The position numbers and the translations under genes are program-made. The notes below the pieces were generated by a model, which saw only the letters and a program-made list of their open reading frames with translations, was not told where the DNA came from and did not search any database. Positions 7,766-15,382 of a stretch of 64,000 nucleotides of DNA are shown here, piece by piece. Every line of letters begins with the position of its first letter. Positions within the stretch are counted from its first letter, which is position 1. This DNA is from Zymomonas mobilis subsp. pomaceae ATCC 29192 (GTDB lineage: Bacteria; Pseudomonadota; Alphaproteobacteria; Sphingomonadales; Sphingomonadaceae). The stretch is taken from assembly GCF_000218875.1 (NCBI RefSeq), contig NC_015709.1, positions 1,557,001 through 1,621,000 on the forward strand. Direction: 5' to 3'.

Positions 7766-7978
7766 AATTCTTTCCTGATTTTGTTTGCCCCTCTCATAAA
7801 GATATTTATGGAGACTATCTTTAAAATCGGCTCTTTGCGAAAAGCCTGAAAATCGTTTTTATTGCAAGTGCGTTATCGTTTTTTGCTGACAAAAGAAAAA
7901 AATGAATGAACCCGCGATGCTTTAAAAGCGTTTTCTTTAGTCGTGGTGAATGTCAGACCCGATATTTGAGGTGCATTG

Positions 7979-10416: not shown

Positions 10417-11418
10417 TTATGATATTGGTGTATTTTTAGGTTTTTTAAGCACGATCGTTACATTCCGTCGCATTTCGTTTAAAAGATGCAGTGCTTGATA
10501 AAGGGCTTGATCACGGTCTGATTGCAGTAGTTTTACAAAAGCTGGATCGGGCGATACATGATCGGGAGAATCCTGTATCGGTTTTTGAAAAATATACTCG
10601 GAAGATAATAATAAGGCGTCTTCTTCTGATGTTATTTCTTTTGAAGAAGGAGAGGACTGGACATCGTCAGAAAGAACTTTTTCTGAATCGATAGGGTGCT
10701 CTCCTTCTTTTTTGCCTTCTATATCATGATAGTTATTTCTGGATTTAGAAGAAATATCTTCTTTTGTTTGAAGATGAATTCCATCTACTTCAGATTTTTT
10801 ATCAATAAATACTATAACTTCTAAATTTTTAGCCTGAGCGTTTTTGTGAAGTGTATCTGATGATAAGGAAAGGGACTCTCCGCTTTTCTCATCAATGATA
10901 ACGGCGGCCTCTGGATTTTCCTTTGGTTTATAAAAGGGAGAAGTCGAAAGGCTTTCTTGATTTATTCGCTTTTCTTTTATCTGTGAAATCGGCGATTGTG
11001 CTCTTTTATCAGATTCTTTTTTTTCATAAAAAATATTGGATAATTCTATCTCGCTTTGAACCTGATTTCGATAATCCTGCTCAAAATAGGTCTGTGTATA
11101 AATATCCTCTGTTTGATCTTCTTTTTTCAAGGAAGATTCTATCTGATGGCGGAAATAAGCAAATAGCGTCACCATTATAAGGGCTGTAGACCCTCCTGTT
11201 ATCGTCGCTAGGGGAATCGCTAAAGCTAGTCGGGCCAAGAGTGTTGTAGATGACGTAAAACGTGTTAACCCTACGACATTTTCCCAATTTGATAAAATAT
11301 CAGGAGGCATCGCGATCAAGAAAGCGAAAGAAGCTAGCGCTAAGGATATAGAAGAAAATCCGATAAGTATCTTTTCTTTGCTGCGGTTATCACCATAATT
11401 TTTTCCTACAGCTATCAT
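10417..11418 (-). CDS. membrane-anchored protein with long disordered tail, unknown
   Basis: I do not recognise this 333-residue protein. It has two hydrophobic helices (about 18-40 and 62-88), the second running into a basic juxtamembrane stretch. About 240 residues rich in Ser, Glu, Lys and Asp follow with no predicted fold, ending in a short amphipathic segment with basic residues (about 300-330). The start is ATG at 11418 with AAGGAG upstream. The tail includes loosely repeated pieces such as VIIDEKSGES and VIFIDKKSEVD. A tail of this kind often serves as a tether or protein-binding platform; no function is assigned. Confidence 0.65.
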   Translation of the reverse strand: MIAVGKNYGDNRSKEKILIGFSSISLALASFAFLIAMPPDILSNWENVVGLTRFTSSTTLLARLALAIPLATITGGSTALIMVTLFAYFRHQIESSLKKEDQTEDIYTQTYFEQDYRNQVQSEIELSNIFYEKKESDKRAQSPISQIKEKRINQESLSTSPFYKPKENPEAAVIIDEKSGESLSLSSDTLHKNAQAKNLEVIVFIDKKSEVDGIHLQTKEDISSKSRNNYHDIEGKKEGEHPIDSEKVLSDDVQSSPSSKEITSEEDALLLSSEYIFQKPIQDSPDHVSPDPAFVKLLQSDRDQALYQALHLLNEMRRNVTIVLKKPKNTPIS

Positions 11419-11619
11419 GGGGGCTTTCTCCTTGGGTTTTCTATCGGACCGCCTATGTCGAATAAGGCTATATTGGATAAAAACGATAAAATAATTAACG
11501 TTTCATTCTGACCCATTTCATAAAAATATTATCTTATCCTGTGGTATTCTATTTTTTATCGACATTATTCCATCACTTAAAAGTTGATTTAACAGTTTAT
11601 TCTTTATTCGGGGAAAAGA

Positions 11620-12744
11620 ATGCCGCAGCAAACAGACAACGGGGTGCTGACTTCACCAGAAGAAATAGCGTTAATGCATCATCAAATAACGGAGTGGTTT
11701 TCTCAGCATTATATTCAGCTCCTGATCGCTATGACCATTGGCATCTTGCTCTTTTTTGGTCTTTTGACCTTAAGACGTATGGCAGAGCGTTTTTTAAAAC
11801 GTAGCGCTTTTCTTAGTGAATGGACTACTATTGTCGGTGAAGCCGTTGGCCGGACTAATATTTTCTTTTTGGCGATACTAACCCTGCGGTTAATCACCAG
11901 TTACACGGGTAGTTCCGAACGTATTTACGAGACCATACAATTTTTATGGGTGATTGCGAGTACGCTACAATTTGCAATTTGGGCAAGACAGCTCATCTTG
12001 GGATTGATAACCTATCGGGTAGAACAAGCTAATAATACTAACCGTAATCTTGATAATGCCCTTAACCTTATCCAACTTTTAGTTTCCTTGGCGCTTTTCC
12101 TTGTCGCCGCCATCGTCATTCTCGATAATTTAGGCGTGAATGTCACTGGTTTAATTGCGGGTCTGGGGATCGGAGGTATCGCTATTGGTTTAGCGGCTAA
12201 AGGTATTTTTGACGATCTGTTTTCGGCCTTAGTAATCATTTTTGATCAGCCTTTTAGAAAAGGAGATATTATCAGCTGGAAAGATTCAAGTGGAACAGTG
12301 GAAAGGATAGGTCTTAAAACGACCCGTATTCGCGCAGGCACAGGGGAAGAAATTATTGTCGCTAACAATATGCTTGTTAACCTTGAAATGCATAATCTTA
12401 GTGAACAAACACGTCAGCGTTTTTCTTTGCAAATTGGTGTTGTCTGCTCAACTACGCCGACCGAATGCGAAAAATTGGTTTCGATATTGCGGGAGGAAAT
12501 AAGCCAAATTACGCTTTGTAAGGTTGTTCGAAGTTGTATGAAAGGGATCGGGGCTTCATCTTTCGATTTTGAAATAGTTTGTGATGTCCAGTCAGGCGTA
12601 CCAGATGATTATTTTTCAGCGAGGACCCAAGCCTGCATCAATATTTTAAAAAGGTTGGAAAAGGAAGGGATCGTACTCGCTTATCCAACAGTAACTAATT
12701 ATAATTATAACGCAGATAAAGCGATATTCTCTTCGCCAGAGTAA
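11620..12744 (+). CDS. MscS-family mechanosensitive channel
   Basis: A 374-residue inner-membrane channel protein expected to form heptamers and release solutes under osmotic downshock. N-terminal helices lie at about 29-50, 80-100, 110-130 and 148-170. The pore-lining TM3 is the glycine/alanine-rich GLGIGGIAIGLAAKGIFDD (about 181-199), followed by the family beta-domain motif DQPFRKGDII (about 209-218). A cytoplasmic alpha/beta domain completes it. It has more N-terminal helices than E. coli MscS (286 residues), so it belongs to the larger MscS-like group. It is followed on the same strand by the ABM genes. Confidence 0.9.
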   Translation: MPQQTDNGVLTSPEEIALMHHQITEWFSQHYIQLLIAMTIGILLFFGLLTLRRMAERFLKRSAFLSEWTTIVGEAVGRTNIFFLAILTLRLITSYTGSSERIYETIQFLWVIASTLQFAIWARQLILGLITYRVEQANNTNRNLDNALNLIQLLVSLALFLVAAIVILDNLGVNVTGLIAGLGIGGIAIGLAAKGIFDDLFSALVIIFDQPFRKGDIISWKDSSGTVERIGLKTTRIRAGTGEEIIVANNMLVNLEMHNLSEQTRQRFSLQIGVVCSTTPTECEKLVSILREEISQITLCKVVRSCMKGIGASSFDFEIVCDVQSGVPDDYFSARTQACINILKRLEKEGIVLAYPTVTNYNYNADKAIFSSPE

Positions 12745-12906
12745 ATTGCGTCATTTTATAAAAGAAGTATTTGAATTACATTTCATTATAAAAATCTATA
12801 AATAATGATAATTACTTTTCTGTTTTATAAGCGTTTCTTAGGCGCTGACAGGATTCGTTATTTGTCCTGTCGCTCTGACAGAATAATTCATGTGATAGGT
12901 GCAGCA

Positions 12907-13215
12907 ATGCCAAATAAAAAAGAGTATAAAACGGTCGTCGCTGTCATTCATGCTTTACCTCAGTATGACGATGAAGTCGAAAAAGGCCTAAGTGATTTGG
13001 CCATACAGGTCAGAGCGGAACCGGGCAATGTCACCTTTATGCCGTATCGGAATGTTTCTGAAAGTCATAGCTACATTGTTTATGAAATCTATCAGAATGA
13101 AACCGCTTTTTTACAGCATGTGAATGCTCACTATACGAGAGCCTTTAATAAAATGCTGGAAACGGCAGCTAAAGGTGGTAAATCACAAGTATTAGAAGTC
13201 AGTGATATTCTCTAA
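12907..13215 (+). CDS. ABM-domain protein (cytosolic copy)
   Basis: A small antibiotic-biosynthesis-monooxygenase (ABM, YgiN/HmoA-like dimeric ferredoxin fold) protein of 102 residues. The upstream ATG at 12805 would add 34 residues with no relation to the paralogues. The ATG at 12907 has AGGTG five bases upstream and brings the domain to the N-terminus, so I prefer it. Shared family features are VxxxIHALPQY near the start, GNVTFMPYRN, and SYIVYEIYQNETAFLQH followed by a late F-N-K-x-L. No signal peptide is present, unlike the two downstream paralogues. Relatives include quinol monooxygenases and heme-degrading enzymes; the actual substrate is unknown. Confidence 0.82.
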   Translation: MPNKKEYKTVVAVIHALPQYDDEVEKGLSDLAIQVRAEPGNVTFMPYRNVSESHSYIVYEIYQNETAFLQHVNAHYTRAFNKMLETAAKGGKSQVLEVSDIL

Positions 13216-13295
13216 AATATCATGCGTAATGATAGTATAAATATATAGAGTGGGTCTAAAATAAATATCCCACTAAAAGTAGGACGAGGATTATA

Positions 13296-13700
13296 ATGTT
13301 ACGTTCTTTTTATAAATATGCCGCTTTGGGTTTAGCCGCTGTTGGGGCGACCTCTGCTTTCATGGCGCCTGTTTCGGCTAAGCCTTCGGTTATTGCTGAT
13401 AACCCTGCCTATGTAACGGTTATTGCGACAATGCACACCCAACCACAATATTATAATACGGTTGGCACAGAGCTGAAGGCTTTGGCTCAGCAGGTCAGAT
13501 CTGAAAAAGGCAATGTTGTCTTTATGCCTTATAGCAATCCTGATGAAAGCAACAGTTACGTTGTTTATGAGGTCTATCGTAACGAAGCGGCTTTTCAGAC
13601 GCATATTACCTCTGACCATACAAGATCGTTCAACAAATTGTTGGAAACGCAGGCTCTTGGCGGTAAATCCGATGTGGCCAAGGTAAAAACAATCTTCTAG
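13296..13700 (+). CDS. exported ABM-domain protein, copy 1
   Basis: 134 residues. Residues 1-28 form a clear Sec signal peptide (basic start, hydrophobic core, cleavage after PVSA). An ABM domain of about 100 residues follows, with the VTVIATMHTQPQY, GNVVFMPYSNPDES and SYVVYEVYRNEAAFQTH segments. GAGGA lies five bases before the ATG. The next gene is nearly identical: about 10 residues differ over 134, and the first 36 residues are the same. A periplasmic location is unusual for this mostly cytosolic family. The catalytic substrate is unknown. Confidence 0.85.
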   Translation: MLRSFYKYAALGLAAVGATSAFMAPVSAKPSVIADNPAYVTVIATMHTQPQYYNTVGTELKALAQQVRSEKGNVVFMPYSNPDESNSYVVYEVYRNEAAFQTHITSDHTRSFNKLLETQALGGKSDVAKVKTIF

Positions 13701-13759
13701 TTTTTCCTAATTTTATAAACATTTTATAATAAAAATAATACTTTAAGGACATGGTTATA

Positions 13760-14164
13760 ATGTTACGTTCTTTTTATAAATATGCTGCTTTGGGTTTAGC
13801 CGCAGTTGGGGCAACTTCTGCTTTCATGGCCCCTGTTTCGGCTAAGCCTTCAGTTATTGCTGATAACCGTGCCTATGTAACGGTTATTGCGACAATGCAC
13901 ACCCAGCCACAATATTATGATACGGTTGGTAAAGAACTGAAGAATTTGGCAATGCAGGTTCGCGCTGAACGAGGCAATGTAGTCTTCATGCCTTATTCGA
14001 ATCCTGACGAAAGCAACAGTTATGTTGTTTATGAAGTTTATCGCAACGAAGCGGCTTTCCAGACTCATATCAACTCTAACCATACGAGAGCCTTCAACAA
14101 ATTGTTGGAAACCCAGGCTCTCGGTGGTAAATCCGACGTGGCTAAAGTAAAAACGATCTTCTAG
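13760..14164 (+). CDS. exported ABM-domain protein, copy 2
   Basis: Tandem duplicate of the preceding gene: 134 residues with the same Sec signal peptide and an ABM domain. Differences cluster in the first helix (YYDTVGKELKNLAMQVRAERG against YYNTVGTELK and so on in copy 1). I start it at the ATG at 13760, homologous to the start of copy 1, with TAAGGA ten bases upstream; an in-frame ATG three codons earlier sits too close to that site. A strong terminator follows, so the transcript carrying the ABM genes ends here. Confidence 0.85.
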   Translation: MLRSFYKYAALGLAAVGATSAFMAPVSAKPSVIADNRAYVTVIATMHTQPQYYDTVGKELKNLAMQVRAERGNVVFMPYSNPDESNSYVVYEVYRNEAAFQTHINSNHTRAFNKLLETQALGGKSDVAKVKTIF

Positions 14165-14193
14165 TTTTTTAGATCGATATTTTTGCAACTTTT

Positions 14194-14229
14194 ATTGCCG
14201 CTGTTTTCGTGAACAGCGGCAATATTTTT
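14194..14229 (+). terminator. terminator of the ABM gene cluster
   Basis: Perfect 12-bp stem, ATTGCCGCTGTT (14194-14205) with AACAGCGGCAAT (14212-14223), loop TTCGTG, followed by ATTTTTA. Confidence 0.9.
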
Positions 14230-14353
14230 AATCCCGAAGCCTTTGTTAACATTTTGAAAGAAGAAAAGAACGATAACGGGCTTTTTTTGAGGCCATAATC
14301 TTGCCAATAGACCTTTAAGAGGCAGCACTTCTTTCGGGCAGGATAATAATGGC

Positions 14354-15382
14354 ATGTTAAAACACTTCCGTGAATCTTTTATCGTAACATTTTTAGGGTT
14401 AATAACCGCTTTTGTTTTTGGCTATTATTCGCAAGCTCATCAAATTTCTGCCGGTTTGAATGCTGCTTTTTTAGCCTTTTTATTAAGTATATTAGAAACA
14501 GCATTCAGTTTTGATAATGCCGTTGTTAATGCTTCTGTCTTAAAAACACTCAGTCCTAAATGGCAGAAATATTTTTTGACATGGGGTATGCTGATCGCTG
14601 TCCTTGGAATGAGGATTCTATTTCCTCTATTAATCGTTTCTTTTTCGGCGTGGGTTAATCCTTGGGAGGCCACCCAAATCGCTCTATTTAATCATCCTCT
14701 TTATGAACAGGTCATGATACAGGCGCAGGCCAGTATTGCCGGTTTCGGCAGTGCTTTTTTAATGCTGGTTGGGCTTAGTTTCTTCGTCAAAGGGGTTCAT
14801 GAGCCGGTATGGATTCGCTGGATCGAGAATCCTTTAATGAAGCTTAATCACATTCCTTTTATCTCTTATTGGCTTACGATCGCTATCCTCGGTAGTTTCA
14901 TCGTATGCTTTAACTGGGATGATGCCTATCATTTTGGGATCGCTGCTTTGTGTGGAATGGGCGCTTACTTTCTTTTAGAAAGACTAGAACATGCTATAGG
15001 GCGTCCCAAAAGTGGCGCTGGCCTTGCCACTTTTATCTATCTTGAATTTCTGGATGCCTCTTTTTCTTTCGATGGTGTAATTGGGGCTTTTGCTGTTACG
15101 AATGATATTGTTTTGATTGCTATCGGCTTGGGTATCGGGGCAATGTTTGTGCGTTCTTTAACGGTTGCACTGGTACAGGGAGGGCATCTTTCCCAATATG
15201 CCTATCTGGAAGCAGGCGCTTTTTACGCCATTGTTACTCTGGCTTTTATTACAGCCCTTAACGTTAAAATCGAGGTGCCAGAAGTGATTAGCGGTTTAAG
15301 TGGAATCGCTTTTATTGGGAGCGCGCTGCTCTATTCGATTTTCTGCAATCATAAGCATCAAAAGTCTCCGTTAGAACATTAA
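14354..15382 (+). CDS. DUF475/TerC-like integral membrane protein
   Basis: A 342-residue protein with about eight to nine transmembrane helices, belonging to the DUF475 branch of the TerC/LysE-like superfamily. The two pseudo-symmetric acidic membrane motifs are SFDNAVVNA (about 53-61) and SFDGVIGAFA (about 237-246), the pattern seen in metal-ion exporters of the TerC/Alx group. A role in metal efflux is therefore plausible but not proved. AGGA lies about 12 bases before the ATG. The upstream region does not show a yybP-ykoY manganese riboswitch. Confidence 0.85.
   Translation: MLKHFRESFIVTFLGLITAFVFGYYSQAHQISAGLNAAFLAFLLSILETAFSFDNAVVNASVLKTLSPKWQKYFLTWGMLIAVLGMRILFPLLIVSFSAWVNPWEATQIALFNHPLYEQVMIQAQASIAGFGSAFLMLVGLSFFVKGVHEPVWIRWIENPLMKLNHIPFISYWLTIAILGSFIVCFNWDDAYHFGIAALCGMGAYFLLERLEHAIGRPKSGAGLATFIYLEFLDASFSFDGVIGAFAVTNDIVLIAIGLGIGAMFVRSLTVALVQGGHLSQYAYLEAGAFYAIVTLAFITALNVKIEVPEVISGLSGIAFIGSALLYSIFCNHKHQKSPLEH

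Follow-up and report, generated by a model that had tools for sequence, protein, structure and literature searches.

A tandem ABM gene cluster of Zymomonas with a conserved, apparently exported and strongly expressed paralogue

Beside a gene for a cytosolic ABM-domain protein, Zymomonas genomes carry a longer ABM gene whose product has the hallmarks of a Sec signal peptide and whose codon usage falls in the range of ribosomal proteins, with the cytosolic copies lower. In the 64,000-nucleotide stretch of the Z. mobilis subsp. pomaceae ATCC 29192 genome analysed here (the window), the exported gene is present twice. The feature is real and well conserved, and its origin is plain: an ABM gene was duplicated and a signal peptide acquired. 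What is unusual is the strong expression of the exported protein, not its local doubling; the exported form looks strongly expressed both from its codon bias and from the values reported for its inferred orthologue, ZMO1779.

Three ABM-fold open reading frames lie in tandem on the plus strand within 12907-14164 (Table 1), the first lacking a signal peptide and the other two of exported type (ex1 and ex2), as the earlier note had described them. All three exceed the Pfam ABM (PF03992) gathering cut-off of 23.1 bits, at 44.8, 49.5 and 51.5 bits, and these scores together with the structural model of ex2 bear out the proposed fold. The first gene is taken to start at 12907, because the longer frame from 12805 carries stop codons in all three other Zymomonas genomes. 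The claimed near-identity of the two long copies is confirmed by alignment: they differ at 10 of 134 residues, with residues 1-36 common to both, and at 48 of 405 nucleotides. Neither tryptophan nor cysteine occurs in any of the nine Zymomonas ABM proteins of the cluster, and the isoelectric point is 7.0-8.9 in the mature exported proteins, compared with 5.7-5.8 in the cytosolic ones. Three more ABM genes are found elsewhere in this genome.

Table 1. Features of the ABM gene cluster and its surroundings (positions in the window)
Feature	Position	Strand	Details
MscS-type channel gene, conserved neighbour	11620..12744	+	Pfam MS_channel_2nd 4.1e-21; same place in 3/3 relatives
Conserved non-coding block preceding the ABM genes	12771..12819	+	43/49 columns invariant in 4 Zymomonas genomes
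Hairpin in probable 5' leader	12846..12872	+	8 predicted pairs; four sequences only
Cytosolic ABM protein, 102 aa	12907..13215	+	Pfam ABM 1.4e-11; start backed by upstream stops in 3 relatives
Exported ABM protein copy 1 (ex1), 134 aa	13296..13700	+	Pfam ABM 5e-13; signal-peptide hallmarks
Signal peptide of ex1	13296..13379	+	Basic N-terminus, hydrophobic stretch, V-S-A motif; likely cleavage after VSA28, by eye
Exported ABM protein copy 2 (ex2), 134 aa	13760..14164	+	Pfam ABM 1.1e-13; model mean pLDDT 94.0 (mature part)
Signal peptide of ex2	13760..13843	+	Amino acids identical to those of ex1; likely cleavage after VSA28, by eye
Intrinsic terminator ending the ABM operon	14193..14224	+	14-pair stem, then TTTTTAATCC
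DUF475/TerC-family membrane protein, conserved neighbour	14354..15382	+	Pfam DUF475 1.9e-112; behind terminator, separate unit inferred

The export signals read on the two long copies are supported by a home-made test, which found the Sec hallmarks (basic N-terminus, hydrophobic stretch and, ahead of the folded domain, a site of the A-X-A type) in both, and indeed in all five exported copies, two here and one in each of three relatives; the five results are not independent, because residues 1-18 are identical in all five copies from the four genomes. The top-scoring cleavage site of the test is residue 18, earlier than the VSA28 site, whose counterparts in the relatives were read by eye as ASA, AAA and AVA. 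The test accepts cleavage only ahead of the ABM domain, hence its negative outcome for the four cytosolic Zymomonas proteins was preordained and is no control; the short protein has no space for a signal peptide, since its ABM domain begins at about residue 7. The exported proteins, having no cysteine, are not lipoproteins. On these grounds the long form is apparently sent to the cell envelope, where the periplasm would be its compartment. The first 26 coding bases (13296-13321 and 13760-13785) are invariant in the five copies of the four Zymomonas genomes, synonymous sites included, whereas codons 19-36 are merely 57-65% identical between this genome and its relatives, so the 5' end of the exported gene may be under constraint as DNA or RNA too, through selection on translation start or on the RNA. 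A signal peptide common to other genes was ruled out, the 26 bases occurring at only these two sites of the genome with up to three mismatches.

Exported ABM proteins had been called unusual, and such genes are rare in the family but not unique to Zymomonas. The same home-made test marked two of 89 sampled Sphingomonadaceae ABM genes, one with a Sec-like (L051) and one with a Tat-like signal (L120), in a census that excluded Zymomonas rows and was not random, combining 30 fetched loci with 59 places picked down the score-ordered matches listed, some passed over.

All three other Zymomonas genomes have the same gene order, MscS, cytosolic ABM, exported ABM and DUF475, in agreement with the expected co-occurrence of the cluster in relatives. 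Each of the three has a single exported copy; export thus characterises the genus, and the doubling alone is peculiar to this genome. The earlier note had held that a pair existing only in this strain would speak against it; the pair is indeed limited to one of the four Zymomonas genomes examined, but the exported gene is present in all four. Outside Zymomonas the best identity does not exceed 32% (59 genomes including this one and three Zymomonas, 12 of them matched, E up to 0.001), and a profile match at 1e-9 was obtained in 4 of 385 Alphaproteobacteria, this genome among the four. Spread by plasmids was considered and ruled out: plasmid matches are all distant, none above 43% identity, and the Kozakia plasmid homologue has a neighbourhood that differs from the Zymomonas cluster.

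In a tree of 46 rows, a chosen part of the loci with long rows trimmed, the nine Zymomonas proteins fall into a single clade with support of 99/94, and the nearest rows, L128 and L068, both come from outside the genus. The exported copies are not monophyletic, ex1 and ex2 of this genome grouping with cytosolic proteins (93/86). Since ex2 is 57% identical to the cytosolic copy of this genome and only 45-46% identical to those of the relatives, partial gene conversion between ex2 and the cytosolic gene of this genome is possible. Duplication of the exported gene is supported; that this happened recently, as had been supposed, is not borne out. Silent changes separate ex1 and ex2 at 31 of 124 same-residue codons (25%), about the divergence between Zymomonas sister species (22-25% among the relatives' exported copies, 39-52% between this genome and the relatives), which would place the doubling after the split from the mobilis group yet not in recent time, unless gene conversion has blurred the silent count. 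The first 18 residues common to both copies carry no age signal, because they are identical in all four genomes.

The codon adaptation index (CAI) is 0.657 for ex1, 0.686 for ex2 and 0.740-0.772 for the exported copies of the relatives, against 0.589-0.649 for the cytosolic copies (0.625 in this genome). The 40 open reading frames of the window with at least 200 aa have a median of 0.583 and a maximum of 0.670, and each exported copy exceeds at least 39 of them. The weights were taken from 23 open reading frames of the ribosomal region (2 of 25 were dropped as spurious), whose own CAI is 0.60-0.77; the index is a rough sign, because these weights come from this genome and the ABM genes are short. 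The gap between exported and cytosolic copies here is modest, and the cytosolic copy of one relative tops 38 of the 40 window frames.

A published table points in the same direction for ZMO1779, the likely ZM4 orthologue of the exported gene. The mapping is inferred by gene counting: ZMO1776 is aminopeptidase N (PMC7487341, PMC8237431), and counting from it in the ATCC 10988 locus leads to the exported ABM gene; by this count ZMO1780 would be the cytosolic gene. One plasmid contig of genome G002 matches an ATCC 10988 plasmid at 100% identity across the 5000 bases compared. Under the name antibiotic biosynthesis monooxygenase, ZMO1779 is tabulated as one of 19 candidates for strong expression, in a predicted operon, with values of 15.08 on the array, 11.24 in RNA-seq and 7.52 in the proteome (PMC6417218). 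The same table gives a reporter value of 0.02 for the intergenic piece before the gene, its lowest entry, under those of weak promoters too (PMC6417218); we read this as the sign of a gene internal to an operon, and it does not show strong transcription. In ethanol the tabulated log2 change is -1.1 for the protein and -0.2 on the array (PMC3712917).

The AlphaFold monomer of mature ex2 is a confident ABM model with the ferredoxin-like alpha+beta fold. Its nearest solved structures are nearly tied by Z score (4zos 16.0, 2bbe 15.9, 1y0h 15.8, 2omo 15.8, 3qmq 15.6, 4dpo 15.5, 1x7v 15.3), and Z values of 14-16 link it to YE0340, SO0527, Rv0793, LsrG, PA3566 and PA0709/ArqI. Residues E70, E92 and H103 (precursor numbering) do not vary in an alignment of 42 ABM sequences, selected from the loci for their closeness to the Zymomonas set and with long rows trimmed. 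All nine Zymomonas proteins keep these residues, in line with a common pocket.

Upstream of the three genes, the conserved block is the probable promoter region of the ABM operon; the promoter and terminator scan of the region reported no consensus promoter within it. The block is conserved about as well as the best-kept stretch of the cytosolic gene. In the leader hairpin one pair is compensatory (A-U in three sequences, G-C in one) and one is broken in one of the four sequences. A riboswitch or other known RNA in the leader was ruled out, as Rfam gave no match at gathering scores in 11400-14400. A link of the ABM genes with DUF475 is not supported, because the strong 14-pair terminator lies between them, and a joint operon was rejected on that ground; terminator-like sites in the region are near chance expectation (4 vs 3.2), and a comparable hairpin with a T run was seen by eye 3' of the exported gene in AN0101. 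The MscS and DUF475 genes flank the cluster in all four Zymomonas genomes and probably belong to separate transcription units. A second DUF475 gene of this genome lies at G000:C1:1214904-1215764, and one each was found in genomes G001 and G002. Farther upstream, a 333-aa open reading frame on the minus strand (10417-11418), with no Pfam or NCBIfam match, is a fast-evolving gene: identity with the frames at the same place in the other Zymomonas is about 32%, against 69-84% for MscS, the ABM genes, DUF475 and PepN; the 588-aa frame at 7976 shows 52-66% in the same comparison.

How could this arrangement have arisen, and what might the exported protein do? We favour a history in which an ABM gene of the Zymomonas lineage was duplicated, one daughter remaining cytosolic while the other acquired a Sec signal peptide, its product becoming periplasmic and strongly expressed; the pomaceae lineage would then have doubled the exported gene again, with dosage as the probable benefit. 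Once mature, the protein, of a small alpha+beta fold, would form a homodimeric barrel by analogy with its relatives, with neither cysteine nor tryptophan and probably with no cofactor. Its most likely role would be that of a periplasmic cofactor-free oxygenase or isomerase, acting on a small enolisable carbonyl or a phenolic or quinol compound that would be met in sugar-rich, alcoholic plant sap. Taken as a whole, from duplication to the class of substrate, we hold this scenario tentatively, at somewhat less than even confidence. Several observations count against it: the exported copies do not form one clade, which leaves room for another order of duplication and export or for conversion with the cytosolic gene; the identity of ZMO1779 depends on the gene count; the reporter value before that gene is low and its protein falls in ethanol; and the codon gap between exported and cytosolic copies is modest here. 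A bolder and rather unlikely extension is that the genus-specific exported enzyme and its cytosolic paralogue from the same operon clear a small, reactive molecule from the two compartments that the inner membrane separates. That would amount to a periplasmic detoxification or signal-removal system, a kind that to our knowledge has not been described for the ABM family.

The exported copies could instead be abundant proteins that are not enzymes, keeping the ABM fold for periplasmic binding, buffering or structure. Such a role would suit the codon bias in the ribosomal range, the higher isoelectric points of the mature exported proteins and the array, RNA-seq and proteome values of ZMO1779, which stand beside those of glycolytic genes (PMC6417218) and would surpass the need of most detoxifying enzymes. 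The three invariant residues are nevertheless kept in all nine Zymomonas proteins, and we consider the non-enzymatic role unlikely, if far from negligible. Somewhat less probable again is that one of the two exported copies, the second, is redundant, with no effect and retained by chance. Its presence in only one of the four Zymomonas genomes would agree with this, but both copies have stayed intact through 25% silent divergence, with 10 amino-acid changes against 31 silent codon changes, and codon adaptation remains high in each.

More specific assignments to known ABM enzymes fare worse. An LsrG-like isomerase removing AI-2 type dihydroxypentanedione outside the cytosol would explain why LsrG is the sole NCBIfam match of the three ABM proteins (E up to 0.001) and why it is among the nearest folds (3qmq); it would also suit the reported response of Z. 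mobilis to added AI-2, the making of its own AI-2 requiring added pfs and luxS genes (PMC8198075). This genome gave no LuxS match, where the control search was positive in 5 of 14 genomes. Against it, the three proteins reach only 21.2, 23.0 and 21.9 bits where the NCBIfam equivalog cut-off (NF007791) is 135, the Z scores of more than five other ABM structures differ from that of LsrG by less than 1, and LsrG binds the phosphorylated form (PMC12274486), which is not expected in the periplasm; we regard this assignment as improbable. An AI-2 system was set aside on the missed LsrG cut-off and the lack of a LuxS match in this genome. Least credible of all is a heme-degrading protein of the IsdG/HmoB kind, for which the common fold superfamily and weak profile matches to the chains of HmoB and of Rv3592, known as MhuD (6ds7 2.2e-07, 3hx9 6.3e-07), could be cited. 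Heme degraders of the IsdG type use an Asn-Trp-His triad, which is excluded here because all nine Zymomonas proteins lack tryptophan, and membership of the IsdG/HmoB group was rejected.

In Z. mobilis, a model organism for ethanol production, ZMO1779, if the inferred mapping is right, is a strongly expressed and apparently exported ABM paralogue conserved in the genus; the tables of PMC6417218 and PMC3712917 give it no name beyond hypothetical protein or antibiotic biosynthesis monooxygenase. Beyond these expression tables, we recognised no study of the protein among the matches listed from open-licence PMC text. The exported paralogue is a concrete target for asking which task an ABM protein performs when strongly expressed in the periplasm, and secretion work in Z. 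mobilis may profit from its signal peptide and leader.

Among known ABM proteins, LsrG (3qmq, 2gff), a cytosolic AI-2 modifying protein, resembles ex2 in its ABM fold (Z 15.6) and through the weak NCBIfam match; it is 16% identical to ex2, and the Zymomonas proteins stay far below its equivalog cut-off. PA3566 (1x7v) and Rv0793 (1y0h) are distant in sequence, both at 22% identity, the former over 98 aligned residues (Z 15.3) and the latter over 95 (Z 15.8), PA3566 being the second-best single-sequence PDB match (6.6e-06); we know of no settled function and no signal peptide for either. YgiN (1r6y), the cytosolic quinol monooxygenase of E. coli, has the ABM fold in common (Z 13.9, 20% identity), as does the glyoxal-induced ArqI/PA0709 (8ecx, 8eif; Z 14.5-14.6, 19% identity). 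ArqI is reported to bind PqsA and to share an operon with the glyoxalase gene gloA2 (PMC12274486), whereas a Pfam scan of six proteins from the Zymomonas cluster detected no glyoxalase. The two signal-bearing Sphingomonadaceae genes, L051 (G083) and L120 (G154), resemble the Zymomonas ones in that a signal, Sec-like or Tat-like, precedes the ABM domain, but lie outside the Zymomonas clade on long branches of unsure placement. Uniqueness is also contradicted by Saro_1420 of Novosphingobium aromaticivorans, an ABM protein reported in a periplasmic fraction; it loses no signal peptide, only its methionine, and has a disulfide bond (PMC3608174), whereas the Zymomonas proteins contain no cysteine.
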